From Roseococcus suduntuyensis (GTDB lineage: Bacteria; Pseudomonadota; Alphaproteobacteria; Acetobacterales; Acetobacteraceae): a stretch of DNA of 64,000 bases. The DNA is taken from assembly GCF_014196305.1 (NCBI RefSeq), contig NZ_JACIDJ010000001.1, positions 854,290-918,289 of the forward strand. The letters are read 5' to 3'. Under the pieces are notes generated by a model. It made no database searches. It saw nothing but the letters and a program-made list of their open reading frames with translations, and was not told where the DNA came from. Shown here piece after piece: positions 3,805-23,935 of this stretch; within the stretch, counting starts at the first letter, position 1, and each line of letters begins with the position of its first letter. The translations under genes and the position numbers were made by a program.

Positions 3805-3807
3805 GGC

Positions 3808-4817: not shown

Positions 4818-4823
4818 TATTCC

Positions 4824-6071: not shown

Positions 6072-6107
6072 TTTTCGTTTCTCCCGGGAGGTGCAGGCAG
6101 GGCAGGC

Positions 6108-6134
6108 GGGGGCGGGGTTGTTGCCCCCGCCCCC
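6108..6134 (-). other. GC-rich hairpin between binding-protein copies 2 and 1
   Basis: A 10-bp stem of G-runs (6108-6117) with C-runs (6125-6134) and a 7-base loop, in the 75-bp gap between two binding-protein genes. It is a likely mRNA-stabilising or attenuating element. Confidence 0.45.
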
Positions 6135-6146
6135 TCACGCGTCAGT

Positions 6147-7391
6147 TCAGCTGCGGACGAGCGCGCAATTGCCGGCGGCCATGGGGCGGAAGGCTTGGTC
6201 GGCGGGCACGGTCTGCAGCAGCTTGTAGTAGTCCCAGGCGCCGCGGCTCTCCTCCGGCGTCTTCACCTGGAACAGGTAGGCGGGGTGCAGCTTGCGGCCA
6301 TCGGCGCGGATGGTGCCCTCGCCGAAGGCGTCATCGCTGGTCGGCATGGCCTTCATGCGGGCCACCGCCTCGGCGCCATTTGCCTTGGCCGCGGCCACGC
6401 CCATCTCGCCCACCGCCTTCAGGTAGTGCAGCACGGAGGAGTAGCAGCCGGCCTGCACCATGGAGGGGCGGGTGTCATTGGGCATCGCGCCCAGGCGCTG
6501 GGTGAAGGCGCGGGTCTTGTCGTTCAAATCCCAGTAGAAGGTCTCGGTCAGCACGAGGCCTTGCGCCGTCTGCAGGCCCAGCGCATGCACGTCGGTCGCG
6601 AAGACCAGCAACCCCGCCAGCCGCACGCCGCGCCGCGTGATGCCGAATTCGGCGGCCTGCTTGATGGAGTTGATGGTGTCGCCGCCGGCATTGGCCAGCC
6701 CGATCACCTGCGCGCGAGAGGCCTGGGCCTGCAGCAGGAAGCTGCTGAAATCCGTCGTGCCCGGGAAGGGTGTGCGGACATTGCCCAGGATGCGGCCGCC
6801 AGCCTGGCGGACGAAGGCGCTGGTGTCGCGCTCCAGCGCATGGCCGAAGGCGTAGTCGGCCGTGATGAAGAACCAGGTCTGGCCGCCGGCCGCCACCATC
6901 GCGCCGCCGGTCGAGTTGGCCAGCATCCAGGTGTCATAGGTCCAGTGGATGGTGTTGGGGCTGCACTGCGCGCCCGTCAGGTCGGACGTGGCGGCACCGC
7001 TGTTCAGGAACACCTTGTTCCGCTCGCGCACGATGGTGTTGACCGCCAGCGCCACCGAGCTGGTGGGCACGTCCACGATCACGTCCACATTGTCGCGGTC
7101 GATCCATTGCCGCACCACGGTGGAGCCGACATCCGGGCGGTTCTGGTGGTCCGCCTGGATGACCTCGACAGTGACGCCGCGCTGCGCGATGCCGCTTTCC
7201 TGCACCGCGAGGCGCACGGCCTGGGTGGAGCCCGGCCCCGAGAGGTCGCGGTAGAGGCCCGACTGGTCGTTCATCACGCCGATGCGGATGGTGTTGGCCG
7301 CCTGGGCGCGGGCCGAGCGGTAGGGCAGCGCGCCCCACACGGGCGCCGTGGCGGCGGCGCCGAGCAGGGTGCGGCGGGAAGTGGTGCTCAT
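6147..7391 (-). CDS. ABC transporter substrate-binding protein (LivK-like), copy 2
   Basis: Periplasmic binding protein of 414 residues with a Tat-type leader (TSRRTLLGAAAT, end near ARAQA). It keeps the same landmarks as copy 1 (RIGVMNDQSGLYRDL, ADHQNRPDVGS, FFITADYAFGHALERDT). Many stretches match copy 1 exactly at protein level, so the duplication is either recent or kept alike by conversion. It lies 35 bp downstream of copy 3. No frameshift or lost motif is visible, so all three copies look functional. Confidence 0.92.
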   Translation of the reverse strand: MSTTSRRTLLGAAATAPVWGALPYRSARAQAANTIRIGVMNDQSGLYRDLSGPGSTQAVRLAVQESGIAQRGVTVEVIQADHQNRPDVGSTVVRQWIDRDNVDVIVDVPTSSVALAVNTIVRERNKVFLNSGAATSDLTGAQCSPNTIHWTYDTWMLANSTGGAMVAAGGQTWFFITADYAFGHALERDTSAFVRQAGGRILGNVRTPFPGTTDFSSFLLQAQASRAQVIGLANAGGDTINSIKQAAEFGITRRGVRLAGLLVFATDVHALGLQTAQGLVLTETFYWDLNDKTRAFTQRLGAMPNDTRPSMVQAGCYSSVLHYLKAVGEMGVAAAKANGAEAVARMKAMPTSDDAFGEGTIRADGRKLHPAYLFQVKTPEESRGAWDYYKLLQTVPADQAFRPMAAGNCALVRS

Positions 7392-7426
7392 GGGGGGAAC
7401 TCCTTCCTCTGTTGCGCTTGGCCGCT

Positions 7427-8668
7427 TCAGCTGCGGATGAAGCCGCAGCCGCCCTCGGCCAGGGGCCGCCAGGGCTCCTCGGCGTCGGTGGACTGCAGCA
7501 GCTTGTAGTAGTCGTGCCGGCCGCGGCTTTCGGCCGGGGTCTTCACCTCGAAGAGGTAGGCGCGGTTCAGCTTGCGACCATCCTCGCGGATGCGGCCCTC
7601 GCCGAAGGCCAGGTCATTGGTCGGCATGGCCTTCATCCGCGCCACCGTGTCGCGCCCGCTGGCCTTGGCGGCGGCGACACCGAGGTCGGCCACGGCCTTC
7701 AGGTAGTGCAGGTTGGCCGCGTAGTCGCCCGCATGGCTCATCGCCACCGGCATGTCGCCGCCGGCCAGCGCCAGGATGCGCCGCGACACGTCCCGCGTGC
7801 CGTCGTTCAGGTCCCAGTAGAAGGTGTTGGCGCAGACCAGGCCCTGCGCCACCTCCAGCCCCAGCGCATGCACGTCGGTGATGAACAGCAGAAGCGAGGC
7901 GATCTTGGTGCCGCGCCGCGTGATGCCGAATTCCGCCGCCTGCTTGATGGAGTTGATGGTGTCCACGCCGGCATTGGCCAGCCCGATCACCTTCGCGCGG
8001 CTGGCCTGGGCCTGCAGCAGGAAGGAGCTGAAGTCGGTCGTGCCGGGGAAGGGCGTGCGGACGCTGCCCAGCACACGGCCGCCGGCGGCGCGCACGAAGC
8101 CCGTGGTGTCGCGTTCCAGCGCATGGCCGAAGGCGTAGTCCGCGGTCAGGAAGAACCAGGTGTCGCCGCCCGCGCGCACCATGGCCGCACCCGCCACCTT
8201 GGAGAGCATGTAGGTGTCATAGACCCAGTGGACGGTGTTGGGGCTGCACGCCCGGCCCGTCAGGTCCGAGGTGGCGGTGGAGGTGGCGATGGCCACCTTG
8301 TTGCGCTCGCGCGCCAAGTCCGCCACGGCCAGCGCCACGGAGGAGGCGGCCAGGCTGCTCACCACGTCCACATTGTCGCGGTCGAACCACTGGCGGGCGG
8401 TGGCCGTGGCGACATCGGGGCGGTTCTGGTGGTCGGCCACCACCACTTCCACGTTGAAGCCGCGCGCCGCGAATTCCTGCACGGCGAGGCGCGTGGCCGC
8501 CACCGTGTTCGGCCCGTTCAGGTCGCGGAAGGTCCCGGACATGTCGGTCAGCACGCCGATGCGGATGGTGTTGGCCGCCTGCGCGCGGGCGCGCGACATC
8601 GGCAGCGCACCCCAGGCCGGCGCGGTGGCGGCGGCCCCGAGTAGGGTGCGGCGGGTGGTGGTGGTCAT
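7427..8668 (-). CDS. ABC transporter substrate-binding protein (LivK-like), copy 3
   Basis: First of the three tandem binding proteins in transcription order, 413 residues. It has a Tat-type leader (TTRRTLLGAAAT) and the same fold landmarks (RIGVLTDMSGTFRDL, VVADHQNRPD, FFLTADYAFGHALERDT). It differs from copies 1 and 2 in the ligand-region segment after the hinge (SSLAASSVALAVADLARERNK against VPTSSVALAVNTIVRERNK), so it may bind a different but related ligand. It follows livF by about 50 bp. Confidence 0.92.
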   Translation of the reverse strand: MTTTTRRTLLGAAATAPAWGALPMSRARAQAANTIRIGVLTDMSGTFRDLNGPNTVAATRLAVQEFAARGFNVEVVVADHQNRPDVATATARQWFDRDNVDVVSSLAASSVALAVADLARERNKVAIATSTATSDLTGRACSPNTVHWVYDTYMLSKVAGAAMVRAGGDTWFFLTADYAFGHALERDTTGFVRAAGGRVLGSVRTPFPGTTDFSSFLLQAQASRAKVIGLANAGVDTINSIKQAAEFGITRRGTKIASLLLFITDVHALGLEVAQGLVCANTFYWDLNDGTRDVSRRILALAGGDMPVAMSHAGDYAANLHYLKAVADLGVAAAKASGRDTVARMKAMPTNDLAFGEGRIREDGRKLNRAYLFEVKTPAESRGRHDYYKLLQSTDAEEPWRPLAEGGCGFIRS

Positions 8669-8720
8669 TTCCTTGGGTTTCCTTCCTTGGGGTTTCCGGT
8701 CCGGCCGCTTCTTGTCGGTC

Positions 8721-9420
<700 letters not shown>

Positions 9421-9428
<8 letters not shown>

Positions 9429-10206
9429 GGTGCGCGCCCTCCGGAACGCCGACGGAGGAGGGGTCGGTGCCGAGATAGGCCGCCTGCACCTCCGGGTTGC
9501 GGCTGACGGCGGCATAGTCGCCCTCGGCCAGGATCTGTCCGCGGGCCAGTACGGTGATGCGGTCGCACAGCCCTTCCACGACCTTGAGGTTGTGTTCCAC
9601 CAGCAGCACCGTGCGGCCCGCCGAGACGCGCTTCACCAGGGTGACGATGCGGTCCACATCCTCATGCGTCATGCCGGCCGTGGGTTCGTCCAGCAGCATC
9701 ATCGCGGGGTCCATCGCCAGCGTGGTGGCGATTTCCAGCGCGCGCTTGCGGCCATAGGGAAGCTGACCCGCGCGCAGATCGGCGTATTCGGTCAGCCCCA
9801 CATCGGCCAGCAACTCATGCGCGCGGTCGTCATATTGCCGCAGCACCTTTTCCGAGCGCCAGAAGTCGAAGCTGGCGCCGCGCTGGCGCTGCAACGCCAT
9901 GCGGACATTCTCCAGCACGGTCAGGTTCGCGAAGACCGCCGAGATCTGGAAGGACCGCACGAGGCCGAGCCGCGCCACCTCGGCGGGCTTCATCCGCGTG
10001 ATGTCGCGCCCGTCATAGGTGATGCTCCCGCGCGTCGGGATCAGGAATTTCGTGAGCAGGTTGAAGCAGGTCGTCTTGCCCGCGCCATTGGGCCCGATCA
10101 GCCCATGGATGGTGCCCCGCTGCACATTGATGTTGACGTCCTGGACGGCCAGAAAGCCGCGGAACTCCTTCGTCAGATTCTCCGTCTGAAGGATGATGTC
10201 GCTCAC
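9421..10206 (-). CDS. Branched-chain-type ABC transporter ATPase, LivG family
   Basis: Partner ATPase, 261 residues. Walker A is GPNGAGKTT. The helical region and Walker B (MLLDEPTAGM) are those of LivG; the family's LSGG signature is replaced by a less usual GQLPYGRKRALEIA. The GTG at 10206 is preferred because GGGGGA lies upstream at good spacing and the reading frame before it is not family-like. This is the first gene of the transport part. The 128-bp gap from xdhB could hold its own promoter, but I see no convincing box. Confidence 0.9.
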
Positions 10207-10334
10207 CCGGATCCGTCCCCCACGCCATTGTTGAATCCGGGGTTTGCCCCGGCGGCTTGTGTCCCTGCCGGGTTGCTTATTCCGCAGCCCAGCCATGCCT
10301 GTATGGCCAAGCCCGCAGCGACATGCAAGCGCCT

Positions 10335-12626
10335 TTACGGCCCCGATTTTATTGCCTTTAAATTGAGCAGAAGCCGCTCCGGCGTGGCTGGCAAGTCGAG
10401 GTGGACCAGCCCCGCCGCGTCGCGCAGCGCGTTCACCACGGCGGTGGCCAGCAGCAGCGGCGGCTCCCCCACCGCCTTGGAGCGGAACAGTGTCCGCGCC
10501 CGCCCGGCCGAGCCCGCCAGCAGCCGCGTCTGCAGCACCGGGGGCACGTCACGCGAGCCGGGAATCTTGTAGGTGGAGGGACCGAGCGTGCGCTGCCGGC
10601 CCTCGCCGTCCCACCACAACTCCTCGGTGGTGAGCCAGCCCATCCCCTGCACGAAGGCCCCCTCGATCTGGCCGATGTCGATGGCCGGGTTCAGGCTGCG
10701 CCCGCAATCCTGCACGAGATGCGCGGACAGGCAGCGATGCTCGCCCGTCAGCGTGTCCAGCAGCACCTCGGCCACGGCGGCGCCATAGGTGAAATAATGG
10801 AAGGGTTCGCCCTTCAGCGCCTCCGCGTCCCAGTGGATGTCCGGCGTCTTGTAGAAGCCGGTGGCCGAGAGGCTGACGCGCGCCTTCCAGCACAGCTTCG
10901 CCAATTCCCCGAAGGTCAGGCGCTTGTTGCTGCCGGCGCGGCTCGCGAAGACCTGCCCCTCCTCGAAGACCACCTCCTCCACCGGGCAGCCGAAATGCTG
11001 CGCGGCCACCTCGGCCATGCGTTCGCGCAGGGTCGTCGCCGCCGCATGGGCGGCCCAGCCGTTGAGGTCGCTGCCGGTGCTGGCCGCGGTGGCGCTGGTG
11101 TTCGGAATTTCGGCGGTGGAGGTGGCGCTGAGGCCCACCGTCTCGACTGGCACGGAGAACACCTCCGCCACCACCTGCGCCACCTTGATGAACAGCCCCT
11201 GGCCCATCTCCGTCCCGCCATGGGCCAGCCGGATGGAGCCATCGGTGTAGACATGCACCAGCGCGCCCGCCTGGTTCAGGTGGACGATGCCGAAGCTGAT
11301 GCCGAAGGCGCAGACGAAGGAACCGAGCCCGCGCCGCAGCGTGGGGTGGGCGGCGTTGAAGGCGGCGATCTCGGCGCGCTTGGCGGCCCAGCCGGCGTCC
11401 TGCTTCGCCTCGGCCAGCACGCGGCGCGTGAGGCTCGGGTCCAGCGCCTGGCCATAGGGGGTGCGGCTGGCGAAGTTCGCCTCGCGCACCGCGTCCACCT
11501 CGCGGCCCAGATGCGCGGCGACCGCGTGCAGCACCTCCTCCATCAGCAGCGCGCCCTGGGGTCCGCCGAAGCCGCGGAAGGCGGTGTTGCTGACATGGTT
11601 GGTCTTGACCGCGCACGCGGTGATGCGGTGCGCCGGCACGCCGTAGCAGTTCAGCGCATGGGTCAGCGCCCGGAACACCACGCCGGCCGACATGTCCACC
11701 GAATGCCCGCCATCACCCGCCAGCAGCGCATCCAGCCCGAGCAGCCGCCCCGTATCGTCGAAGCCCACCTCCCAACGATAGAGGAAGGGGTGGCGCTTGC
11801 CGGTAGCCGCCATGTCGGCACGGCGGGGCAGGCGCAGCTTCACGGGCATGCCCGTCAGCCGGGCGGCGACGGCGGCGGCGGCGGCGATCCAGCTGGCATT
11901 GCTTTCCTTGCCGCCGAAGGCCCCGCCCATGCGGCGGCACTGCACCGTGACGCGGTGATAGGGCACGCCCAGCACCCGCGCCACGATGTGCTGCACCTCG
12001 GTCGGGTGCTGGGTGGAGGAATGGACCAGCATCTCCTCCCCCTCGCCCGGGATGGCCAGCGCGATCTGCCCCTCCAGGTAGAAATGCTCCTGCCCGCCGG
12101 CGCGGAACTGGCCCGCGAGGCGGTGCGGTGCGGCCTCCAGCGCGGCCGCCGCATCGCCCGCCACCATGGTCTGCGGCTTGATGATCCAGGCCTCGCGCGC
12201 CAGACCCTCCTCGATGCTCAGCACCGGCGGCAGGGGTGTCACGGCGGTGGTCACGGCGGCCGCCGCGCGCAGGGCCTCGTCGCGGGTATGGGCGACCACG
12301 ATGGCCAGCGCCTGGCCGTGATGCTCCACCACCGCCTCGGCCAGCATCACCTCGCCCGTCGCGATGGGGGCGATGTCGTTCTCGCCCGGGATGTCCATGG
12401 GCGTGATGATCCGCACCACGCTGGGCATCGCGGCGGCGGAGGCCGTTTCCAGCGCGTCCAGCTTCCCATGCGCCACGGGCGAGAGCACCAGCGCCGCGTG
12501 CAGCAGGCCCGCAGGTTCCGCCAGGTCGTCGAGGAAGCGGGCCTCGCCGGAGGCGTGCTTCAGCGCGCTGTCATGGCGCATGGCCTGGCCGGCATGCTTC
12601 AGGCGGAAGCTGCCGCCATCCATCAT
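10335..12626 (-). CDS. xdhB: Xanthine dehydrogenase-family molybdenum subunit, XdhB-like
   Basis: Large molybdopterin-binding subunit of a two-subunit hydroxylase, 763 residues. Motifs seen: GGAFGGKE, RGFGGPQG, GTEMGQGL and KAVGEPP, the last carrying the active-site Glu. These match true xanthine dehydrogenases more than other family members. It overlaps xdhA by ATGA. No xdhC (cofactor sulfuration) lies in the window. Given its neighbours (enamidase, hydroxynicotinate reductase), it may hydroxylate nicotinate or another N-heterocycle rather than xanthine. Sequence alone cannot decide. Confidence 0.9.
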   Translation of the reverse strand: MMDGGSFRLKHAGQAMRHDSALKHASGEARFLDDLAEPAGLLHAALVLSPVAHGKLDALETASAAAMPSVVRIITPMDIPGENDIAPIATGEVMLAEAVVEHHGQALAIVVAHTRDEALRAAAAVTTAVTPLPPVLSIEEGLAREAWIIKPQTMVAGDAAAALEAAPHRLAGQFRAGGQEHFYLEGQIALAIPGEGEEMLVHSSTQHPTEVQHIVARVLGVPYHRVTVQCRRMGGAFGGKESNASWIAAAAAVAARLTGMPVKLRLPRRADMAATGKRHPFLYRWEVGFDDTGRLLGLDALLAGDGGHSVDMSAGVVFRALTHALNCYGVPAHRITACAVKTNHVSNTAFRGFGGPQGALLMEEVLHAVAAHLGREVDAVREANFASRTPYGQALDPSLTRRVLAEAKQDAGWAAKRAEIAAFNAAHPTLRRGLGSFVCAFGISFGIVHLNQAGALVHVYTDGSIRLAHGGTEMGQGLFIKVAQVVAEVFSVPVETVGLSATSTAEIPNTSATAASTGSDLNGWAAHAAATTLRERMAEVAAQHFGCPVEEVVFEEGQVFASRAGSNKRLTFGELAKLCWKARVSLSATGFYKTPDIHWDAEALKGEPFHYFTYGAAVAEVLLDTLTGEHRCLSAHLVQDCGRSLNPAIDIGQIEGAFVQGMGWLTTEELWWDGEGRQRTLGPSTYKIPGSRDVPPVLQTRLLAGSAGRARTLFRSKAVGEPPLLLATAVVNALRDAAGLVHLDLPATPERLLLNLKAIKSGP

Positions 12627-13975
12627 GCGAAGACCTCCGCCGGCAGCCCGGCATGGCGAAGTGCGAGGCGCCGCAGCAGGCCGCGCGCCGCTTCCAGCCG
12701 GTATTCGGCGCTGCCGCGCCAGTCCGCCATGGGCGCGAAGTCCAGCGCCTGGCCGGCGCCCGCCAGCGCCCCGTCATCCAGTTTCCGGCCGCGCAGCGCG
12801 GCCTCGGCCGGGGCGCAGCGGCGTGCCGTCGCGTCCATGCCGCCGAAAGCCAGCCGCGCCTCCCGCACCACGCCATCCTCGAAGGTGATCAGCGCGGCGA
12901 GCGAGACGGCGCTGATGTCCTGGTCATGCCGGCGCGAGAGCTTTTCCGCCGCCAGGAAGGCGCCCTCCGGCGGGCGTGGCAGGTGGATGGCGACGATCAG
13001 TTCCTCCGGCGCCAGCGCGTTGCGGCGATAGCCCGTGAGGAATTCGCCCACCGGCACATGCCGCACGCCGCGCAGCTGCGCCACCTCCACCACCGCGCCC
13101 AGCGCCAGCAGCACCGGCAGCGCATCCCCGATGGGCGAGGCCGTGCCGAGATTGCCCGCCACCGTCCCCAAGCCCCGGATTTGCCGCGACCCCAGCCGCG
13201 ACAGATAGGGCACCAGCGGCGCCCAGGCGGCATCGGCCCGGCAGGCGCGCAGCCATTCGGCGTAGCTGGCGGCGGCGCCGATGCGCAGGCCGGTGGGGCG
13301 GACCTCCACCCCCTTCATCTCCGCCACGTTCAGCAGGCAGAGCACCTGGGCCGGATGCTCCCGGTGCTCGGAAAAGCGCAGGCCGAGATCGGTGCCGCCC
13401 ATCAGCACCAGGGCCTCCGGCCGCACGGCGCGCAGCGCCAGCGCCTCGTCCAGCGAGGCCGGCAAATGGAAGCCGCCGAACTTGGCGCTGTCCGGGACCA
13501 CGGGGGCGGGCGGCGCCGCGCCGTCATCCTGTAGGCGCGCCATGGCGTCCAGGATGGGGCGATAGCCCGTGCAGCGGCAGAGATTGCCCGCCAGCGCCTC
13601 ATGCGGATCGCCGCCCTCGCGCGTATGGGCCCAGGCGGACATGACGATGCCGGGGGTGCAGAAGCCGCATTGCGTGGCGTCCGCCTCGGCCAGGGCGCGG
13701 GGGACGGTGTGCTGCGGCCCGAGCCCCTCCACCGTGCGGATGGCGCGGTCATGTAGCTGGCCCAGCACGCAGAGGCAGGCATTGACGGGGGTGCGGCCGC
13801 CATCGGCGCCCTCCAGCACCACGGTGCAGGCGCCGCAATCGCCCTCGGCGCAGCCCTCCTTGGCGCCGGTCAGACCCTCGGCGCGGAGCCAGTCCAGCAG
13901 GGTGGTGGTGGGGCTCTGGTGCGGTGGCAGGGTGCGGGGCGCCCCATTCAGCACGAGGCGAATCTGGTCATCCAT
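12623..13975 (-). CDS. xdhA: Xanthine dehydrogenase-family FeS/FAD subunit, XdhA-like
   Basis: Small subunit of 450 residues fusing two [2Fe-2S] domains and an FAD domain. The plant-type cluster cysteines are in GCAEGDCGACTVVLE. The second cluster is in CGFCTPG and LCRCTGY. FAD-binding segments are LMGGTDLGLR and GTVAGNLGTASPIGD. Electrons pass from the Mo site to FAD and then NAD+. It starts 18 bp after the DUF1185 gene and overlaps xdhB by 4 bp, so the two are co-translated. Confidence 0.92.
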   Translation of the reverse strand: MDDQIRLVLNGAPRTLPPHQSPTTTLLDWLRAEGLTGAKEGCAEGDCGACTVVLEGADGGRTPVNACLCVLGQLHDRAIRTVEGLGPQHTVPRALAEADATQCGFCTPGIVMSAWAHTREGGDPHEALAGNLCRCTGYRPILDAMARLQDDGAAPPAPVVPDSAKFGGFHLPASLDEALALRAVRPEALVLMGGTDLGLRFSEHREHPAQVLCLLNVAEMKGVEVRPTGLRIGAAASYAEWLRACRADAAWAPLVPYLSRLGSRQIRGLGTVAGNLGTASPIGDALPVLLALGAVVEVAQLRGVRHVPVGEFLTGYRRNALAPEELIVAIHLPRPPEGAFLAAEKLSRRHDQDISAVSLAALITFEDGVVREARLAFGGMDATARRCAPAEAALRGRKLDDGALAGAGQALDFAPMADWRGSAEYRLEAARGLLRRLALRHAGLPAEVFA

Positions 13976-13993
13976 GGCGCGGCCGGCGGTTGG

Positions 13994-14572
13994 TCATCGC
14001 AAACCATCCGTCCCCACGATGTCCTTCACCTCCAGCCCCCCAATGCGCGGCAAGGGCCGCCCCCCGGTGGTCAGCGCCAGGCAGAGCAGGATTTCGCCCG
14101 CCATGGGCGCATCCGTGCAGCGGAACTCGATGGCGTCGAAATGCGAGCGGACAAAGGCCGCGTCCTTGTGGCCGAGCGGGATATCAATGGCCGTGCCCAT
14201 GCCGCCGCGCTTCTTCGCGGAAGGAATCAGCGCCGGCCCCTTGCCCAGCGCGGTGCGCACCGGCGCGCCCATCCTGGGGTGCAGCAGGGCGGCGGCGTGT
14301 TCCAGCTCGCCGCCCTCGCCCACCACGGCGGCCTTGCCGAAGCTGTGGACCTGCTCGCCCGGGATGCCCAGCGCGGCCACGGCGCGCGCGGCCAGTTCCG
14401 CGCCCAATGTCTCGCCCGCCTCGATCAGGGGCGCGAGGTCCTCGACATAGCGCCCCGCGAAGGGGTTCAGCAGCACGCAGGCGGCCACGGCGCGGCGGAT
14501 AGGGGGCGTCACGGTCTGGCCCTGTTCCAGCGCCACCTCCTCCACCAGCGCGATGTATTTCCGGATGATCAT
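13994..14572 (-). CDS. DUF1185 / 'amino acid synthesis' family protein
   Basis: Protein of 192 residues from the AA_synth family (formerly DUF1185). Known structures of the family show a chorismate-mutase-like fold, but no activity is established. Conserved-looking segments here are NPFAGRY near residue 36 and GRPLPRIGG near the C-terminus. It overlaps the enamidase gene by ATGA and precedes xdhA. Its place between enamidase and hydroxylase genes suggests a role in N-heterocycle catabolism, perhaps on a ring or ring-opened intermediate. That is inference. Confidence 0.85.
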   Translation of the reverse strand: MIIRKYIALVEEVALEQGQTVTPPIRRAVAACVLLNPFAGRYVEDLAPLIEAGETLGAELAARAVAALGIPGEQVHSFGKAAVVGEGGELEHAAALLHPRMGAPVRTALGKGPALIPSAKKRGGMGTAIDIPLGHKDAAFVRSHFDAIEFRCTDAPMAGEILLCLALTTGGRPLPRIGGLEVKDIVGTDGLR

Positions 14573-15729
14573 GCCACCACCTCCGGGATGCGCGCGGCGG
14601 GCGGCGTGTTGCGGCTGCGGGCGGTCTTCACCTCGCCATCCACCATCACCATGCCGATGCCGGGCAGTTCGCCAAAGCTGAAGGCCTGGGCGGCATCGCT
14701 GCCCGCCCCGCCGATGGGGGCATCCAGGAACACCAGGTCCGCCGCGCGGCCGACGGCGATTGTCCCCGCCTCGATCCCGCGCCAGCGCGCCGTGTTGCCG
14801 CCCGCCGCCGCGATGGCGATGGCCGGATCAAGCCCGCCCAGGCTGCACAACAGCGAGATGGTCCGCATGACACCCAGCGGCTGCACGCCCGACCCCGCCG
14901 GGCTGTCCGTGCCCAGCACCAGCCTGTCGAGCCGCCCCATCTCGCGCAGCACGTTCATGGCGTGGATGGCGTTGCGCGGGTTGCCGTTGTGCACCACCTC
15001 GATGGCGCGCCTGGTGCCCTCGATCACCTTGGTCAGTTCGGCGGCGGGCAGGCTGGTGGGCCCGCCATTGATGTGGGCGACGATGTCCGCATCGGCCGCG
15101 ATCACCACCGGCGCCTGCATCAGGTTGGACCCCGCGATGGAAGGCCCGCCGCAATGGATCATGGCGTTCAGCCCGGCGGCGCGGACATGGCCCATCACCT
15201 CCACCACCTCGGCCTCGTCCTTCACGGTGCCCAGGCCGAACTCGCCCACGAAGCGCACGCCGGCGGCCGCCATCTCGGCGTAGTCGGCGGCGGTCAGGCC
15301 GCGCTCGGGCACCGGGGCGCCGGCCAGCACCCGCGCCCCCATGGGGCGGAAGGCGCTGAAGCAGCGCTGGGCGGCGATGGCGAGCGCCTTCACCCCCACC
15401 GGGTCCTTCGGACGGCCGGGCAGATGCACCTCGCCCGCCGAGATCAGGGTGGTGGTGCCGCCATGCACCATGGCCTCGATCCAGCCCAGCTGGTTCTGGC
15501 GCGGGGTCCAGTCGCCGAAGGCCGGATGCACATGGTTGTCGATCAGGCCGGGCATGACGGCGCAGCCCTTGGCGTCAATGACCGTGGCACCCTCCGCGTC
15601 GAAATCCGCCGCGCGGCCGATGCCGGCCACCTTCCCGCCCTCGATCAGCAGGGCGTCGGCGTCCCGCAGGGGGGTGTCCATCTCGCCCGTGAAGAACAGT
15701 CCAATGCCACGCACCAGCACCCGCGCCAT
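14569..15729 (-). CDS. Enamidase-like cyclic amidohydrolase
   Basis: Metal-dependent amidohydrolase of 386 residues. From memory it resembles Eubacterium barkeri enamidase along its length. Shared landmarks include GLIDNHVH (metal HxH), GDWTPRQ, HLPGRPKD, GEFGLGTVKD, HINGGPTS and the C-terminal SRNTPPA. Enamidase opens 1,4,5,6-tetrahydro-6-oxonicotinate to 2-formylglutarate and ammonia. The ATG at 15729 is supported by a GGGGGAT ribosome site. It is the first gene of the minus-strand operon and divergent from the reductase that would make its substrate. Confidence 0.8.
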   Translation of the reverse strand: MARVLVRGIGLFFTGEMDTPLRDADALLIEGGKVAGIGRAADFDAEGATVIDAKGCAVMPGLIDNHVHPAFGDWTPRQNQLGWIEAMVHGGTTTLISAGEVHLPGRPKDPVGVKALAIAAQRCFSAFRPMGARVLAGAPVPERGLTAADYAEMAAAGVRFVGEFGLGTVKDEAEVVEVMGHVRAAGLNAMIHCGGPSIAGSNLMQAPVVIAADADIVAHINGGPTSLPAAELTKVIEGTRRAIEVVHNGNPRNAIHAMNVLREMGRLDRLVLGTDSPAGSGVQPLGVMRTISLLCSLGGLDPAIAIAAAGGNTARWRGIEAGTIAVGRAADLVFLDAPIGGAGSDAAQAFSFGELPGIGMVMVDGEVKTARSRNTPPAARIPEVVA

Positions 15730-15851
15730 CCAATCCCCCTTGCGCCTGATTTCCCAGCCTAGTTTCCGATTGAGCGTGTCGCCAAGGGAAAGCACAATCC
15801 GTTGCGATGACGGAGGCAGGATTTGCGACACCCCCACCTGGCGGCCCGCCC

Positions 15852-17339
15852 ATGACCGACCGGACCGAGCAGTTCGGCGCCCGCGAGGGGAATGAGGGCA
15901 TCGTCCGCTGCGACGCCTGCCCGGTGCTGTGCCGCATCCGCCCCGGCCGCGCCGGGGCCTGCCACCGCTATGCCAACGAGGACGGGCGCCTCATCCGCAC
16001 CGACCCGCTGGTGCTGCTGCACCAGGCGGTGGAGGAGGGCACGCCGCTGGTCCCCTTCCTCGACGCCGCCGAGGATTGGGCGGGCGATGTCACGCCCCCG
16101 CCGCAGGTTTTCGTCACGGCGATTGGCGCCGGCACCACCTATCCCGACTACAAGCCCGCGCCCTTCATCGTGGCGCAGAAGCATGAGGGGGTGGACACCG
16201 TCACGGTCGTGACCGAGGGAATCTTCAGCTATTGCGGGCTGAAGGTGAAGATCGACACCGACCGCCATCTCGGCCCCGAATGCGCCCCCGTGCTGCATGA
16301 GGGCGAGCAGATCGGCCATGTCACCACCGCCGAATATGGCTCGCAGATGCTCTCGCTCGGCGGCGTGCGGCACCTGACCGGCGGCTCCAAGCGCGAGGGC
16401 CAGGTCACCTGCGCGGCCATGCTGGCGCTGTGTCGCAAGCAGGCGATCGAGGTGACGATCCCGGGCGGTTCCCGCGTCATCTTGCAGGCCGGCGCGGCCC
16501 CCATCGTCAACGGCGTGGCCGAGACGCGCATGCGGGTGGGCTGCGGCAGTGCCGCGGTCGGCATCTTCGCCCAGCAATGGCAGGGCCATGTGGACGAGGT
16601 GGTGGTGGTGGACGACCACATTACCGGGGTCCTCACCGAGCACCAGGCGGGGCGCTGCCTGAACATGCGCCCCTCCGGCCTGCGCGTGCGCGGCCGCCGC
16701 TCCACCCCCGGCCGCTATTTCCAGGTGGCCCACCCCGGCACCGGCTGGGGCGGCACCGACGTGACGGACCCGCTGACGCTGATCGAGAGCCTGGACCCCA
16801 AGCTCGCCTGGCCCGGGATGCGCGTGCTGATGACCAGCACGACGGGCGAGGACAGCCTGTGGCTGGAACTGGACGAGGCCCTGCGCCCCGTCCCCGCCCC
16901 CATGCCCGACGCCGTGGCCCAGACGGTCGCCCGCATCGGCGAGAATTGCGAACCGGCGCTGACTTCCATCCTCTTCATGGCGGGTGCCGGCGGTTCGCTG
17001 CGCGCGGGTGTGACGGACAACCCCATTCTGCTGACCCGCGCCGTCCAGGCGGGCGAGGTGCGCGTCACCATGGGCGGCGCGCCCTGCACCCTCTGGCCCG
17101 GCGGGGGCATCACCATCATGGCCGATGTGCTGGCCATCCCGGACAACGCCTTCGGCCATGTGCCGACGCCCGCCCTGGTGGCGCCCATCGAATTCACCTT
17201 GCGCGCCGGGCTTTACGCCGCACTTGGAGGGCATGTGGACCAGGCCATCGCCCTCGAGACCCTGCTTGCCCGCCACGCGGAGGCCGCGGTGAACGCCCCC
17301 TGGCCCCGCGCCAACCCCTGGCCCGACGCGCCCTCATGA
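15852..17339 (+). CDS. 6-hydroxynicotinate reductase-like protein
   Basis: Protein of 495 residues with an N-terminal ferredoxin-like cluster motif, CDACPVLC followed by GACHRY, near residues 20-40. A large domain rich in Gly follows (GAGTTYPDYKPAPF, EGIFSYCGLKVKID, GCGSAAVGIFA). It matches my recollection of 6-hydroxynicotinate reductase, which reduces the pyridone ring to the tetrahydro-oxo form; the E. barkeri enzyme carries FeS clusters and covalent flavin. The upstream ATG at 15807 is a possible alternative start; neither has a clear ribosome site. The gene is divergent from enamidase and overlaps UPF0280 by ATGA. Confidence 0.72.
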   Translation: MTDRTEQFGAREGNEGIVRCDACPVLCRIRPGRAGACHRYANEDGRLIRTDPLVLLHQAVEEGTPLVPFLDAAEDWAGDVTPPPQVFVTAIGAGTTYPDYKPAPFIVAQKHEGVDTVTVVTEGIFSYCGLKVKIDTDRHLGPECAPVLHEGEQIGHVTTAEYGSQMLSLGGVRHLTGGSKREGQVTCAAMLALCRKQAIEVTIPGGSRVILQAGAAPIVNGVAETRMRVGCGSAAVGIFAQQWQGHVDEVVVVDDHITGVLTEHQAGRCLNMRPSGLRVRGRRSTPGRYFQVAHPGTGWGGTDVTDPLTLIESLDPKLAWPGMRVLMTSTTGEDSLWLELDEALRPVPAPMPDAVAQTVARIGENCEPALTSILFMAGAGGSLRAGVTDNPILLTRAVQAGEVRVTMGGAPCTLWPGGGITIMADVLAIPDNAFGHVPTPALVAPIEFTLRAGLYAALGGHVDQAIALETLLARHAEAAVNAPWPRANPWPDAPS

Positions 17340-18232
17340 CCGATGGGGGCATGAGCGCCTGGCCCGCGCCCCGGCGCGCCATGCTGCCCGATGGGCGGTT
17401 GCATCTGCAGGACGGGCCCATAGACCTCGTCATCGGCATCGAGGGCCTGCGCCCCGCCGTGCTCCAGGCGCGCGAGGCCGCGGCCGCGGCTCTCACCGGC
17501 CTGCTGCCTGCCCTCGCGATGGAATTGCCGCTGCTGCGGACGCCCCTGCTGGGCCGGATGCCCAGCTTCCGCCACCCCGTCGCCCGCCGCATGGCCGAGG
17601 CCGCATGGCCGCACCGCGCCATCTTCATCACCCCCATGGCGGCGGTGGCGGGTGCCGTGGCCGAGCATGTGCTGGCCGCCATCGCGGCCGTGCCGGGCGT
17701 GCAGCTCGCGCATGTGAACAATGGCGGGGACATCGCGCTGCACCTGTCCCCCGCCAGCACGCTGCGGGTGGGGCTGGTGGAGGGGCCGGAGGCCGGTGTG
17801 CCCGATGGGCTGGCCGTGATCCGGGGGCGAGATGGGGTGCGGGGCATCGCGACCTCCGGCTGGCGCGGCCGCAGCTTCTCGCGCGGGATCGCCGATGCGG
17901 TGACGGTGCTGGCCGACCGCGCGCCCGAGGCCGACGCCGCCGCCACCATCATCGCCAATGCGGTGGATGTGGACCACCCGGCCATCCTCCGCGCCCCGGC
18001 GGAAAGCCTGGACCCCGACAGCGACCTGCGCGACCTGCCCGTGACCACGCATGTGGGCGAATTGCCCCCGGCGCTGGTGGCCGAGGCGCTGGATCACGGC
18101 GAGGCCTGCGCCGAACGCCTGCTGGCGCGCGGCCTGGTGCTGGGCGTCTGCCTGCGGCTGCAGGGCCAGGTGCGGCTGCTGGGCGCGGCCGATGCGCTGG
18201 CGGCGATGGACCGCGCGGCTTCCATCCGATGA
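17336..18232 (+). CDS. UPF0280 family protein (ApbE-like)
   Basis: Protein of 298 residues of the UPF0280 family, which is related to the ApbE flavin transferase fold. Landmarks are HVNNGGDIALHL, GIATSGWRGRSFSRGIADAVTV and the alternating Asp-rich segment that would hold the metal. ApbE proteins attach FMN covalently to a Thr or Ser. The upstream overlapping partner belongs to a family reported to carry covalent flavin, so a maturation role is attractive. The start overlaps the reductase stop by 4 bp. Enzyme activity of UPF0280 is not established. Confidence 0.85.
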   Translation: MTDGGMSAWPAPRRAMLPDGRLHLQDGPIDLVIGIEGLRPAVLQAREAAAAALTGLLPALAMELPLLRTPLLGRMPSFRHPVARRMAEAAWPHRAIFITPMAAVAGAVAEHVLAAIAAVPGVQLAHVNNGGDIALHLSPASTLRVGLVEGPEAGVPDGLAVIRGRDGVRGIATSGWRGRSFSRGIADAVTVLADRAPEADAAATIIANAVDVDHPAILRAPAESLDPDSDLRDLPVTTHVGELPPALVAEALDHGEACAERLLARGLVLGVCLRLQGQVRLLGAADALAAMDRAASIR

Positions 18233-18306: not shown

Positions 18307-18783
18307 ATGGATGAACACGGGCGGCTGAAGCGGCGGCTGCTGATCTTGCGGGTGCCGGTCGCGACCGCGTTGCTGCTGCCGGCCGGCGCGGCCCTGGCGC
18401 AGAAGACGCCGGCCCCGCCCGAGCCCGCGCCGAAGGCGCCACCGGAGCCCCGGCGCGCCCCGCCGCCGGTCACCGATTCCGACCCGTCCGATCCGCCTGG
18501 CCAGGGGCGGGGAGGTGGCGGCGGACGAGGCGGTGTCACCGATTCCGATCCCAATGATCCGGTGGGGCGCGGGCGGGGCGGTGGGCGTGGCGTGACCGAC
18601 TCCGACCCGGACGACCCGGTGGGGCGCGGACGCGGCGGTGGGCGCGGCGTGACCGATTCCGATCCGAATGACCCGCCGGGACGCGGACGCGGCGGGCAGC
18701 GGCCCCAAGGCCCGACCGACAGCGACCCGCATGACCCGGTGGGCCGCGGCCGCGGCAGCGGGCCCCGCACCTACAGCACCTGA
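18307..18783 (+). CDS. Secreted low-complexity protein with TDSDP repeats
   Basis: Unrecognised protein of 158 residues. Residues 10-32 look like a signal peptide ending ALAQ. A Pro-rich linker follows. Then come five near-perfect units of about 20 residues, each starting (V)TDSDPxDPxGRGRGG with a variable Gly/Arg spacer. The units are acidic then basic, so each carries a D-rich turn that might bind Ca2+ and a GR-rich tail that might bind nucleic acid or anions. The DNA units are also alike, suggesting recent expansion. No partner genes are evident; the gene stands 75 bp after UPF0280. Confidence 0.75.
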   Translation: MDEHGRLKRRLLILRVPVATALLLPAGAALAQKTPAPPEPAPKAPPEPRRAPPPVTDSDPSDPPGQGRGGGGGRGGVTDSDPNDPVGRGRGGGRGVTDSDPDDPVGRGRGGGRGVTDSDPNDPPGRGRGGQRPQGPTDSDPHDPVGRGRGSGPRTYST

Positions 18784-18793
18784 ACGCCCCGCC

Positions 18794-19024
18794 TCAGCCG
18801 CGTGCCGCGCCCCGCGCGCATTCCAGCGCGAAGACGCGCAGCCGGCTGGTCAGCGGTTCCGCCGCATCGGTGCGCGTCGCGTCCTGCTCGGCGATGAGGG
18901 CCGCCAGCGGCATGGCGCGGCGGGCGGCCTCCTCCTCCAGCGCGGCCCAGAAGGCGGGCTCCAGCGCGATGGAGGTGCCATGCCCCGCCAGCCGCAGGCT
19001 GCGCTTCACCAGATGCCCGGTCAC
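18794..19024 (-). CDS. Ribbon-helix-helix domain protein
   Basis: Small protein of 76 residues. The stretch VKRSLRLAGHGTSIALEPAFWAALEEEA matches the RHH_4 type, a compact DNA-binding fold common in alphaproteobacteria. It starts with GTG overlapping the fumC stop (GTGA), so it is the second gene of a fumC operon. It may be an autoregulator or a global small regulator; no target can be named. There is no toxin partner beside it, which argues against an antitoxin. Confidence 0.75.
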   Translation of the reverse strand: MTGHLVKRSLRLAGHGTSIALEPAFWAALEEEAARRAMPLAALIAEQDATRTDAAEPLTSRLRVFALECARGAARG

Positions 19025-20403
19025 GGCCGCAGCATCGCCTCCGGCTTCACCCAGGCGTCGAAATCCTCGCCCGCCACGCCCTCGCGCGCGGCGGCGTCCC
19101 GCAGCGTCAGGTCCTCGTGCAGCGCGAGCTTGGCGATGGCGACCGCGCGGTCATAGCCGATATGCGGGTTCAGCGCGGTGGCGAGCATCAGCGACTTCGC
19201 CAGGTTCTCGGCCAGGCGCGCGTGGTTCGGTTCCAGCTTGTCCACCATGTGGCGGGCGAAGCTGGTGGCGGCCTCGGCCATCAGGGTCGCGGATTGCAGC
19301 ACCGCCTGGATGATGACGGGCTTGAAGGTGTTGAGTTCCAGATGCCCCTGGGACGCGCCGATGGTGACCGTCACCTGGTTGCCCATGACCTGGGCGCAGA
19401 CCATGGTCAGTGCCTCGCTCTGGGTGGGGTTGGTCTTGCCGGGCATGATGCTGGAAGACAGGCCATCATCGGGCACGATCAGCTCCGCCAGCCCCGCGCG
19501 CGGGCCGCTGCCCAAGAGGCGGATGTCATTGCCGATCTTCATCAGGGACGCCGCGATGGTGTTCATCGCCCCGTGCAGTTCCAGCAGCGCGTCATGCGCC
19601 GCCATGCCCTCGGACTTGTCGGGGTTGGGTGTGAAGGGCAGGCCCGTGCGGGTGGCCACCACCTCGCAGAAGATACGGTCGAAATCGGGGTGGCGGTTCA
19701 GGCCGGTGCCGGCCGCAGTGCCGCCCTGGGGCAGTTGCAGCAGGCGGGGCATGGCGGCATCGAGCCGCGCCACGCCATGGATCACCTGCCGCGCCCAGGT
19801 GGCGAATTCCCCGCCGAGCGTGACGGGCACGGCGTCCATCAGGTGGGTGCGGCCCATCTTGATGATGCCGGCCCATTCCTCCGCCCGCGCGTTCAGGCTG
19901 GCGGCGAGCGTCTCCAGCGCGGGCTTGAGGCGGCGCTGCGCGGCCTCGGCGGCGGCGAGATGCATCACCGTCGGGAAGCTGTCGTTGGAGGATTGGCCGC
20001 GGTTCACATGGTCGTTGGGATGCACCGGCGCCCGTGCGCCCAGCTTCGCGCCCAGCAACTGGTTGGCGCGGTTCGCGATCACCTCGTTCGCGTTCATGTT
20101 GGTCTGGGTGCCGGAACCCGTCTGCCAGATGGTCAGCGGGAAATCCGCGTCGCGCTGGCCCGAGATGATCTCCTGCGCGGCCTGCTGGATGGCATCCGTC
20201 AAATGGCGGGGCAGTTCGTCCAGCCGCGCATTGGCCTCCGCCGCCGCCCATTTCTGCTGGCCCAGCGCGCGCAGCAGCAAAGGCGGGAAACGCTCGGTGC
20301 CGATGGCGAAGAGGTGGCGGGCGCGTTCGGTCTGCGGGCCCCAGAGGCGCTCGGCGGGAATCTCGACCGTGCCGAGGCTGTCGGTTTCGGTGCGCGTGGT
20401 CAT
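19021..20403 (-). CDS. fumC: Fumarase class II
   Basis: Iron-independent fumarate hydratase of the TCA cycle, 460 residues, the usual length. The superfamily signature is intact as SSSIMPGKTNP near residues 313-323, with TGSGTQTNMNANE near residue 100 and GRTHLMDAVP near 188. It is followed by the RHH gene. An unrelated class I fumarase lies 1.4 kb away (21757), so the cell has an oxidant-resistant and an FeS enzyme for one step. Confidence 0.96.
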   Translation of the reverse strand: MTTRTETDSLGTVEIPAERLWGPQTERARHLFAIGTERFPPLLLRALGQQKWAAAEANARLDELPRHLTDAIQQAAQEIISGQRDADFPLTIWQTGSGTQTNMNANEVIANRANQLLGAKLGARAPVHPNDHVNRGQSSNDSFPTVMHLAAAEAAQRRLKPALETLAASLNARAEEWAGIIKMGRTHLMDAVPVTLGGEFATWARQVIHGVARLDAAMPRLLQLPQGGTAAGTGLNRHPDFDRIFCEVVATRTGLPFTPNPDKSEGMAAHDALLELHGAMNTIAASLMKIGNDIRLLGSGPRAGLAELIVPDDGLSSSIMPGKTNPTQSEALTMVCAQVMGNQVTVTIGASQGHLELNTFKPVIIQAVLQSATLMAEAATSFARHMVDKLEPNHARLAENLAKSLMLATALNPHIGYDRAVAIAKLALHEDLTLRDAAAREGVAGEDFDAWVKPEAMLRP

Positions 20404-21009: not shown

Positions 21010-21396
21010 GCCTCGGGGCTGGCGCCGCGCGGTGACTTCGATCTCGATGCGCATGGCATCGGTCTGCAACTGCGCGTGGATGAGGGTGGAGGCGGGGCGC
21101 GTCTCGCCGAAGTATTTTTTCAGTATGGGCCAGCAGGGGGCCCAGTCCTCGCGGCGGGGCACGATCACCAGCATCCGCACCACATCCGACAGCGTGGCAT
21201 CGGCCTGGGCGAGGGCGGCGCTGATGTTCTTCAGCGTCTGCTCGCACTGGGCCGCCACGTCGTCCACGATGGTCATGGTGGCGTAGTCATAGCCGGTGGT
21301 GCCGGAGAGGAAGATGAAATCCCCATCCACCACGGCGCGCGAATAGCCGATCTCTTCCTCGAACTTCGAGCCGGAGGAGATGAGGCGACGGGTCAT
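21007..21396 (-). CDS. RidA family protein
   Basis: Trimeric RidA/YjgF/Rid fold protein of 129 residues. Family landmarks are FLSGTTGYDY, QCEQTLKNISAAL, and the C-terminal IEIEVTA. The Arg that defines true imine deaminases (an R-x-x-V-E-V type ending) is not clearly kept: the sequence reads MRIEIEVTA, so the Arg lies two residues before the usual site. It is therefore a Rid-subfamily member of uncertain activity. It precedes VOC; a separate RutC paralogue lies at 41662. Confidence 0.85.
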   Translation of the reverse strand: MTRRLISSGSKFEEEIGYSRAVVDGDFIFLSGTTGYDYATMTIVDDVAAQCEQTLKNISAALAQADATLSDVVRMLVIVPRREDWAPCWPILKKYFGETRPASTLIHAQLQTDAMRIEIEVTARRQPRG

Positions 21397-21756: not shown

Positions 21757-23409
21757 TCACTCCAGCCCCTCGTAGAAATCGTTGCCCTTGTCATCCACCA
21801 CGATGAAGGCCGGGAAATCCTCCACCTCGATCCGCCACACCGCCTCCATGCCGAGCTCCGGGTATTCCAGCACCTCGACCTTGCGGATGCAGTCCTGCGC
21901 CAGCCGCGCCGCCGGGCCGCCCACGGAGCCCAGGTAGAAGCCGCCATGCTTCTGGCAGGCCTCGCGCACGGCGCGGGAGCGGTTGCCCTTGGCCAGCATC
22001 ACCAGCGAACCGCCGGCGGCCTGGAAGGCCGCCACATAGCTGTCCATGCGCCCGGCCGTGGTGGGGCCGAAGCTGCCGGTGGCCATGCCCGTCGGCGTCT
22101 TGGCCGGGCCCGCGTAATAGACGGGGTGGTTCTTGATGTAGTCGGGCAGGCCCTCGCCGCGGTCGAGCCGTTCCTGCAATTTCGCGTGGGCGATGTCGCG
22201 CGCCACCACGATGGTGCCGGTCAGCGAGACGCGGGTCTTCACCGGGTGCTTCGCCAGCTCCGCGCGGATCGCGTCCATGGGCCGGTTGAGGTCGAGCTTC
22301 ACCACCTCCCCGCCCAGGATGTCGTCGGTGGCCTCGGGCAGGTATTTCGCGGGGTCGTGCTCCAGCTCTTCCAGGAACACGCCCTCGGCCGTGATCTTGG
22401 CCTTGATCTGCCGGTCGGCGGAGCAGGAGACGCCGATGCCGATGGGCAGTGAGGCGCCGTGCCGCGCCATCCGCACCACGCGCACATCATGGCAAAAATA
22501 CTTGCCGCCGAACTGCGCGCCGATGCCGAGGTTCTGCGTCAGCTTGTGGATCTCGGCCTCCAGCGCGCGGTCGCGGATGGCGTGGCCGGACTTGTCGCCC
22601 GTCTCCGGCAGCCCATCCAGGTAGCGCGTGGAGGCGAGCTTCACGGCCTTGAGGTTGGCCTCGGCACTCGTGCCGCCGATGGCGATGGCCAGGTGGTAGG
22701 GCGGGCAGGCGGAGGTGCCCAGCGTCTTCACCTTTTCCTCGATGAAGGCCAGCAGCTTGGGCTTGTTCAGCACCGCGCGCGTCTGCTGGTAGAGGAAGGT
22801 CTTGTTGGCCGAACCGCCGCCCTTCAGCACGAACATCAGGTGGAATTCGTCAGCATGGTCCTCGCCGGGCGAGGCCAGGATGGTGAACTCCACCGGCATG
22901 TTGTTGCCAGTGTTCGCCTCGTCGAACATGGAGAGCGGCGCCATCATGGAATAGCGCAGGTTCGTCTCGGTGTAGGTGCGGGCGACGCCGTAGGACAGCG
23001 CCTCCTCCTCATTGCCCTCGACCCAGACGCGCTGGCCCTTCTTGCCGAAGACGATGGCGGTGCCGGTGTCCTGGCACATGGGCAGCTTGCCGCCGGCGGC
23101 GATGTTGGCGTTCTTCAGCAGGTCCAGCGCCACGAAGCGGTCATTCGCGCTGGCCTCCGGGTCCTTCAGGATGGAGGAGAGCTGGGCCAAGTGGCCGGGG
23201 CGCAGCAGGTGGGAGACGTCGCGGCAGGCGGCGAAGGCCAGCTCCTCCAGCGCCTGGGGCGGCACCTTCAGCACGCGCTTGCCGTCCACCTCGATGACCT
23301 TCACCCCCTCGATCGGCAGGCGGCGATAGGGGGTGGTGTCCTCGGCGAGGGGGAAGGTCGGGCTGTAGTGGAAGCCTTCGGGGCGGGCGGGGGTGGCGCT
23401 GTCGAGCAA
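21757..23409 (-). CDS. Fumarase class I
   Basis: [4Fe-4S] fumarate hydratase with the alpha and beta domains in one chain, about 550 residues. The cluster cysteines are visible in [17 protein letters not shown] and GVSCSADRQ. The beta domain holds ITGPTT-like [12 protein letters not shown] and ends FYEGLE. No ATG exists near the family N-terminus ([17 protein letters not shown]). I place the start at a TTG at 23409 with GGAG upstream, 22 bp after the sspB stop; this start is uncertain. Oxygen-labile counterpart of FumC at 19021. Confidence 0.92.
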
Positions 23410-23431
23410 GGTGTGGGCTCCGGGCGGGGTG

Positions 23432-23935
23432 TCAGTCGCGCTTGCGGCGGAAGGCGTCGAGGCTGACGACCTGTGGCTGGGGGGCGGGTGCGGGGTCTTC
23501 TTCGGGGGCCGTGGCGGTGGGTTCGGGCGGCGGCAGGTCCGCCGCGTCCTCCTCGCCGTCATATTCGGGCTGGAAGCGCAGGCCGAACTGGGCATGCGGG
23601 TCCTGGAAGGCGGTGAGCGCCGCGAAGGGCACGACCAGCGAGGCCGGGATGCCCGAAAAGGACAGCCCCACCGAGAAGCGCTGCGCCACGCGGTCCACCT
23701 TCAGGTCCCAGAAGCGGTGCTGGATCACGATGGTGATCTCGTGCGGGTATTTCGCCTTCAGGAACGCCGGCACCGAGGTGCCCGGGTGGTCCGTGCGGAA
23801 GGAGATGTAGAAGTGGTGTTCGCCCGGCAGGCCCTCGCGCGCCGCGTATTCGAGCGCGTCCACGACCACCGAGCGCAGCGCGCGCGTGGCCCAGGCTTCG
23901 TAGGGGAGCAGGCTGGGGGTGTTGGTGTCTGTCAT
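23432..23935 (-). CDS. sspB: ClpXP adaptor SspB, alphaproteobacterial type
   Basis: Adaptor of 167 residues that carries ssrA-tagged proteins to ClpXP. The folded domain covers residues 8-125 ([56 protein letters not shown]). A Pro/Glu-rich flexible linker follows, then a C-terminal ClpX-docking tail ([14 protein letters not shown]). The tmRNA gene that makes the tag lies 215 bp upstream on the same strand, so tagging RNA and tag adaptor are neighbours. Upstream of the fumarase with a 22-bp gap. Confidence 0.92.

Follow-up and report, generated by a model that had tools for sequence, protein, structure and literature searches.

Our analysis concerns a stretch of 64,000 nucleotides from Roseococcus suduntuyensis (contig NZ_JACIDJ010000001.1, positions 854,290 to 918,289), hereafter the window, and within it a reductive nicotinate-type locus. 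The locus is of a known cluster kind that has lost its first enzyme, and an altered xanthine dehydrogenase (XDH)-type enzyme, XdhAB, is the only molybdenum (Mo) hydroxylase left in the operon. The genes of the usual first enzyme, nicFAD and nicMo, are deleted from between ena, which encodes a predicted enamidase, and hnr, which encodes a 6-hydroxynicotinate-reductase-type protein; no NicMo orthologue is present in the genome; ena and hnr remain under purifying selection; and the Mo subunit XdhB bears glycine at the site of Thr460 of R. capsulatus XDH. We tentatively conclude, at a rough probability of 0.45, that XdhAB now supplies the first hydroxylation of this reductive pathway, the nearest competing explanation being a truncated pathway that starts from 6-hydroxynicotinate. 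The activities of all the enzymes, and above all the role of XdhAB, are predicted here from sequence and gene context.

NicMo is a fused 2Fe-2S/Mo hydroxylase of the Ndh type, and its flavin adenine dinucleotide (FAD) subunit, NicFAD, is usually encoded just before it. The best PDB match of its C-terminal part is 3HRD_B, the medium subunit of E. barkeri Ndh (203.8 bits, against 146.3 for the next), and Tyr13 of Ndh, placed by modelling at the nicotinate nitrogen, is matched by Tyr in 64/64 NicMo proteins; this count covers 64 of the 66 full-length frames, L056 and L070 having been dropped because the frame ran into hnr (G and L numbers denote genomes and loci of our samples). The Hnr family is large: a species-level genome collection yielded 590 loci or more. 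The 80 loci counted below are the best-scoring of these and therefore lean to close relatives. Upstream sequence extends for 3.4 kb or more in 71 of the 80. NicMo lies upstream of hnr on the same strand in 64 of the 71, the gap being below 300 bp in 61 of the 64; two of the seven exceptions, L091 and L097, carry NicMo at another place in the locus. The window's family was sampled with 61 genomes: of the 34 that are Hnr-positive, 27 have NicMo, and of the 27 that are Hnr-negative, none does. The seven Hnr genomes without it are the window genome (G000), its sisters G402 and G523, and G603, G590, G674 and G569. In G674, the neighbours of hnr are a 2Fe-2S subunit and a Mo protein of 1199 residues that includes three cytochrome c stretches; in G569, a three-subunit hydroxylase takes this place. 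With these other architectures adjoining hnr, hydroxylase exchange at hnr loci has precedent. G603 has hydantoinase A and B genes between importer and hnr.

The gap between ena and hnr in the window measures 122 bp. On the left, as far as 15788, it can be aligned with the region between ena and nicFAD in Roseococcus, which holds the Ena-side promoter, and on the right, from 15850, with the beginning of hnr; some 3.4 kb, corresponding to nicFAD-nicMo, is missing between the two aligned sides. The junction is common to the window and the two sister species G402 and G523. Genome-wide searches found no NicMo in these three genomes, with nothing at E<=1e-150 in G000 and best matches of 36-38% identity (36% in G000). 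One clean deletion, in the ancestor of the three sister species, removed nicFAD-nicMo from between ena and hnr. All cluster frames are open in the comparison of the window with its two sisters, and the ratio of nonsynonymous to synonymous substitution rates (dN/dS) is 0.03-0.16 across the cluster genes: 0.083 and 0.071 for Hnr, 0.067 and 0.028 for Ena, and 0.114 and 0.110 for XdhB. Hnr and Ena are under purifying selection. Among openly licensed PMC papers, we found none that deals with this deletion or with an XDH clade bearing Gly460, no search having been aimed at the Gly change.

The genus sample places XdhAB in the locus at an earlier stage. XdhAB, NicMo and Hnr occur together in G543, G565, G614, G628 and G633, so that NicMo is present in five of the nine other same-genus genomes with XdhAB; G484 lacks XdhAB but has the other two, all three are missing from G626, and G634, a fragmented assembly, has XdhAB and neither of the others. 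As XdhAB and NicMo coexist in five loci of the genus, XdhAB was present before NicMo was lost. A second, larger loss is seen in G542 of the same genus, in which nicMo and hnr are gone and the frame of the UPF0280 gene that follows hnr is intact, with a nicFAD stub recognised by eye directly before it (L174:14820-15180). This is decay of the same locus, independent of the deletion in the window.

XdhB passes the XdhB model TIGR02965 (952.6 bits, cut-off 849.5), its best PDB match is R. capsulatus XDH, 1JRO (656.9 bits), and an XDH-type XdhB is single-copy in the window genome. We read the substrate pocket in 74 of the 159 genomes that match XdhB at E<=1e-150. Glu232, Arg310, Phe344, Phe459 and Glu730 never vary in these 74 family proteins. 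The Thr460 site, occupied by Gly446 in the window, is Gly in 50/50 members of one clade (support 1.000, window included), against Thr in 19 and Asn in 5 of the other 24. As the parts of PMC5746545 on this site describe it, Thr460 contacts the purine, and it is at that spot that HxnS, a nicotinate hydroxylase of fungi derived from an XDH, is altered. PF09349, of the ureide branch, is found in 3/48 tested Gly-clade genomes and in 19/23 others, counts that are not independent because the genomes are related; no PF09349 gene was found in the window genome or the other same-genus genomes tested. Because PF09349 is the only ureide-branch gene searched for, we do not claim that purine breakdown is absent. 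Matches to the XdhC model TIGR02964 in the window genome stay below its cut-off.

XdhAB can be compared with two known enzymes. Like R. capsulatus XdhAB, it keeps five of the six named pocket residues; unlike it, it has Gly for Thr460, its XdhA falls below the model TIGR02963 (393.8, cut-off 467), and a PF09349 gene was not found in the genome. Like HxnS, as the relevant sections of PMC5746545 present that enzyme, it is of the XDH type, lies in a nicotinate cluster and is changed at the same Phe-Thr substrate site. In HxnS, however, an Ala is inserted before the Thr, whereas the Thr itself is Gly in XdhB; the Gly clade, moreover, occurs outside nicotinate clusters too. The same sections hold that nicotinate hydroxylases arose several times from the xanthine dehydrogenase family.

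These results bear on an earlier note on this DNA, which had left the first step as an open question. That caution was justified: NicMo is deleted, and the choice lies between replacement by XdhAB and a start at 6-hydroxynicotinate. The note's view of XdhB as a true xanthine dehydrogenase holds as to type (TIGR02965) and is doubtful beyond that, in view of the Gly at the Thr460 site and the PF09349 gene not found in the genome. Its statement that XdhAB stands in place of a four-subunit Ndh has to be replaced, as relatives carry a fused NicMo upstream of hnr, and five of nine XdhAB-bearing congeners do so too.

The features of the locus are as follows.

15730-15851, no strand: Ena/Hnr intergenic region, site of the missing nicFAD-nicMo, from alignment to Roseococcus relatives
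14569-15729, minus strand: Ena, predicted enamidase of the amidohydrolase superfamily (2VUN match; PF01979)
13994-14572, minus strand: PF06684 (AA_synth, DUF1185) protein (PF06684, 237.6 bits; PDB 2QTP, E=8.4e-70)
12623-13975, minus strand: XdhA, 2Fe-2S and FAD subunit of the XDH-type Mo hydroxylase (Pfam domains; TIGR02963 below cut-off)
10335-12626, minus strand: XdhB, Mo subunit, XDH type (TIGR02965 above cut-off; PDB 1JRO; pocket residues)
9421-10206, minus strand: LivG-type ATP-binding cassette (ABC) ATPase (PF00005, PF12399; start codon picked by inspection)
8721-9428, minus strand: LivF/UrtE-type ABC ATPase (top NCBIfam match UrtE, 225 bits, below cut-off; start by inspection)
7427-8668, minus strand: substrate-binding protein 1 (PF13458)
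6147-7391, minus strand: substrate-binding protein 2, paralogue of 1 (translations compared by inspection)
4824-6071, minus strand: substrate-binding protein 3, paralogue of 1 (translations compared by inspection)
3808-4692, minus strand: LivH-type permease (named by inspection of the translation; order conserved in same-genus loci)
2821-3804, minus strand: LivM-type permease (named by inspection of the translation; order conserved in same-genus loci)
15852-17339, plus strand: Hnr, 6-hydroxynicotinate-reductase-type protein (8 invariant Cys; name from PMC3511419)
17336-18232, plus strand: UPF0280/COG2122 protein (PRK04334.1-2, 353.5 bits, cut-off 290; PDB 2O34, 2.5e-7; start by inspection)

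The minus-strand genes thus run in the order Ena, PF06684 protein, XdhA, XdhB, LivG, LivF, three binding proteins, LivH and LivM, and the genes for Hnr and the UPF0280 protein, the start of the latter overlapping the hnr stop (ATGA), are divergent from Ena. The ABC importer is complete, with LivG, LivF, three paralogous binding proteins, LivH and LivM.

The match of Ena to E. barkeri enamidase (PDB 2VUN) spans residues 37-419 of the query (E=7.6e-99, 334.6 bits); the runner-up PDB match is at 2.7e-9. Positions H67, H69, E164, H193, H220 and D276 of the 2VUN chain, which we take to be the metal site, are identical in Ena. The protein is therefore a predicted enamidase (EC 3.5.2.18), which would convert tetrahydro-6-oxonicotinate to 2-formylglutarate. 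Ena is found in just 13 of 46 hnr loci with full flanks, so that other ring-opening enzymes are probably in use in the loci without it. Hydantoinase genes occur in two hnr loci with no Ena in the stretch examined: an A gene named by inspection at L120:17920-19968, and A and B genes identified with Pfam at L293:5812-9709. Perhaps these provide an ATP-dependent ring opening instead of the enamidase.

The hnr gene is an intact frame of 495 codons. In a phylum sample, Hnr matches at E<=0.001 occur in 34/398 genomes, two of them short and weak (about 36 residues) and one split in two pieces. Eight Cys are invariant in 28/28 aligned sequences, L112 being left out for a stop in its match. The cofactors of characterised 6-hydroxynicotinate reductase are iron-sulfur clusters and a covalent flavin. 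Searched against Pfam and NCBIfam, the protein scores below every Pfam cut-off and has no NCBIfam family listed. The predicted model has a mean predicted local distance difference test (pLDDT) score of 75.1, and a Foldseek search with it returned nothing at E<=0.001. The structures that fit it best are GcvT-type barrels, matched at Z 3.6 across 64 residues, in agreement with a sub-threshold Pfam match to GCV_T_C. The putative name Hnr follows from the gene context and from the account of the same kind of cluster in the relevant part of PMC3511419 (2012), where the homologue of Bradyrhizobiaceae strain SG-6C is given as 42% identical to E. barkeri Hnr.

That part of PMC3511419 describes a conserved nicotinate cluster in aerobic hosts, namely Azorhizobium (A. 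caulinodans), Bradyrhizobium (B. japonicum), Rhodopseudomonas and strain SG-6C, the last of which degrades nicotinate and 6-hydroxynicotinate. The cluster comprises an Hnr homologue, the genes of the first three steps, a putative nicotinate ABC transporter and two conserved unknown proteins. Compared by kind of gene rather than gene by gene with the clusters as that part presents them, the window is alike in its Hnr homologue, candidate genes for the first three steps, importer, two unknown partners and aerobic-type host. It differs from related hnr loci in lacking nicFAD-nicMo beside hnr and in having an XDH-type XdhAB in the operon. The genes of nicotinate fermentation in E. barkeri were reportedly described by Alhapel in 2006. 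Like E. barkeri, the window has Ena along its full length (2VUN) and an Hnr-type reductase; unlike it, the window has no four-subunit Ndh and an aerobic-type host, and no downstream fermentation genes of the E. barkeri kind were found in the stretch examined (2821-18232).

Much of the gene assignment in the earlier note stands. The amidohydrolase at 14569-15729 does match E. barkeri enamidase along its length, with all three motifs that had been cited inside the 2VUN alignment, and an Hnr-type gene, so named from the relevant part of PMC3511419 and from context, is found divergent from it as proposed. The importer was rightly recognised and is complete, although its extent had been undercalled, since it reaches down to 2821; the PF06684 (13994-14572) and UPF0280 (17336-18232) genes had gone unmentioned. 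The pathway had been presented as known from an anaerobe and, by physiology, from Azorhizobium, whereas the cluster part of PMC3511419 had already reported it, importer included, for aerobes.

Several observations weigh against assigning the first hydroxylation to XdhAB. XdhB keeps XDH residues Glu232, Arg310, Phe344, Phe459 and Glu730, and it has Phe (Phe441), not Tyr, at the Ndh Tyr13 site, the equivalent position being aligned with Tyr13M of Ndh in the sections of PMC5746545 noted above. Hnr occurs in only 25 of 51 genomes with an XdhB of at least 65% identity; since 26 of the 51 lack it, the Gly460 clade is not tied to nicotinate and has some other basic role. In other genera checked, XdhAB lies outside the nicotinate cluster. 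Ten further Mo-hydroxylase-like places in the window genome have 26-32% identity to XdhB. Finally, nicMo and hnr are lost from G542, where XdhAB, Ena and the PF06684 gene are nevertheless all intact. The nearest rival reading is a truncated pathway, in which 6-hydroxynicotinate from neighbours is taken up and metabolism starts at Hnr, with XdhAB as an XDH or a different hydroxylase that is only a bystander in the operon. NicMo is gone with no orthologous copy elsewhere in the genome, XdhAB keeps five of six XDH pocket residues and passes the XdhB equivalog cut-off, and 6-hydroxynicotinate appears transiently in culture supernatants of the nicotinate degrader SG-6C, as stated in the relevant part of PMC3511419. 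We regard such a truncation as possible, not far behind replacement though at well below even odds, given the Gly at the Thr460 site, the PF09349 gene not found in the window genome or other same-genus genomes tested, and the retention of XdhAB in the operon at a dN/dS of about 0.11.

It seems unlikely that the cluster serves another N-heterocycle, such as a different pyridine, pyrimidine or pyrazine acid open to hydroxylation, as substrate of XdhAB, Ena and the PF06684 protein, with Hnr reducing the oxo form. G542, which keeps these three without Hnr and NicMo at dN/dS 0.08-0.13 against G543, would be in line with this, as would G609, where XdhAB adjoins an 81% identical LivG with neither Hnr nor NicMo. 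The G542 rates, however, span the whole time since the split from G543 and not just the time since the deletion, and the relatives' Ena- and Hnr-type genes stand with a Tyr13-bearing Ndh-type enzyme, which points to nicotinate. Any of the ten other Mo-hydroxylase-like places might hydroxylate nicotinate, and 6-hydroxynicotinate would then be made by an enzyme encoded elsewhere in the genome; in favour stand these places themselves and a best NicMo match of 36% identity in the genome. We consider this improbable, as no NicMo orthologue is among the ten. A tblastn search gave no clear WYGxGNT motif in nine of the places, where the alignments are gapped and not decisive. Decay of the pathway after loss of its first gene is very hard to reconcile with the data: the nicFAD-nicMo deletion in the window and the larger loss including hnr in G542 could be its first signs, but all frames are intact and dN/dS is 0.03-0.16 against two sisters with the same deletion.

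With XdhAB as the replacement for NicMo, the importer would take up nicotinate (vitamin B3) or 6-hydroxynicotinate, and XdhAB, a member of the Gly460 clade already in the operon before the loss, would most likely now carry out the first hydroxylation. Hnr would reduce 6-hydroxynicotinate to 1,4,5,6-tetrahydro-6-oxonicotinate, and Ena would open the ring to give 2-formylglutarate and ammonia. A more specific proposal, which we put forward as a speculative one, is that an XDH-type enzyme with Gly for Thr460 took over nicotinate 6-hydroxylation after deletion of the Ndh-type enzyme; this may be an independent bacterial parallel to HxnS and one case of a repeated exchange at hnr loci.

The two partner families can be described further. 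In 72/75 loci a UPF0280 gene follows hnr at a distance of no more than 1.5 kb. The UPF0280 protein is related to ApbE in the C-terminal half of the latter: the hhalign match (probability 93%, E=3.6e-7) covers 92 columns only and stops short of the N-terminal half with the flavin-binding region and the HxxDP segment; according to the passages of PMC5764234 on COG2122, the match of that family to ApbE likewise misses the N-terminal half, and a role in persulfide chemistry is offered as an alternative. We do not accept the UPF0280 protein as an ApbE flavin transferase, since the match is limited to 92 columns and the UPF0280 frame is intact in G542, which lacks hnr. Adjoining the UPF0280 gene, at 18307-18783, is a small protein of TDSDPNDPPGRGRGG-like repeats, and similar repeats occur in a small frame of L176 near 6388.

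The model of the PF06684 protein gives Z 23.6 to 2QTP and 3BYQ. Its further fold matches are tied and below 8, with the Rid protein PA0814 at 7.0, chorismate mutase at 6.8 and cyanuric acid hydrolase at 6.5, and barbiturase and orotic acid hydrolase also in the list (Z 6 to 7). A ring-opening amidase or enamine hydrolase was considered and not adopted, these tied scores of Z 6 to 7, all below 8, making it at most a modelling lead. PF06684 proteins fall into two subfamilies, encoded near Ena and after UPF0280 respectively; they stand in tandem in 12/80 loci, many of these on short contigs. Tandem diverged pairs are seen in the hnr clusters L081, L087, L091, L098, L106 and L125, and such a pair might form a mixed hexamer.

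Elsewhere in the window, rutABCD, the Rut pyrimidine-utilisation genes, lie at 39774-42823, each above its NCBIfam equivalog cut-off. Two fumarase genes were named by inspection, a class II (FumC-type) gene at 19021-20403 and a class I-type gene at 21757-23595, with a Rid-like protein between them at 21010-21396. A transfer-messenger RNA (tmRNA) gene is on the minus strand at 24161-24501, with the tag ANDNVREDVALAA. The fraction of guanine plus cytosine falls to 0.62 and 0.57 in 48001-52000 and is 0.68-0.74 in the rest of the window.

The locus puts the uncharacterised families PF06684 and UPF0280/COG2122 into a pathway of known chemistry. According to the passages of PMC2954203 on its gene neighbourhood, PF06684 owes its 'amino-acid' label in part to neighbouring genes described as amino-acid ABC transport genes; in hnr clusters, a transporter of this kind is the putative importer of nicotinate. 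In this genus, moreover, close sister species differ in whether they retain the ancestral hydroxylase, with one altered XDH-type enzyme in the same operon, and therefore a change of substrate is directly testable.

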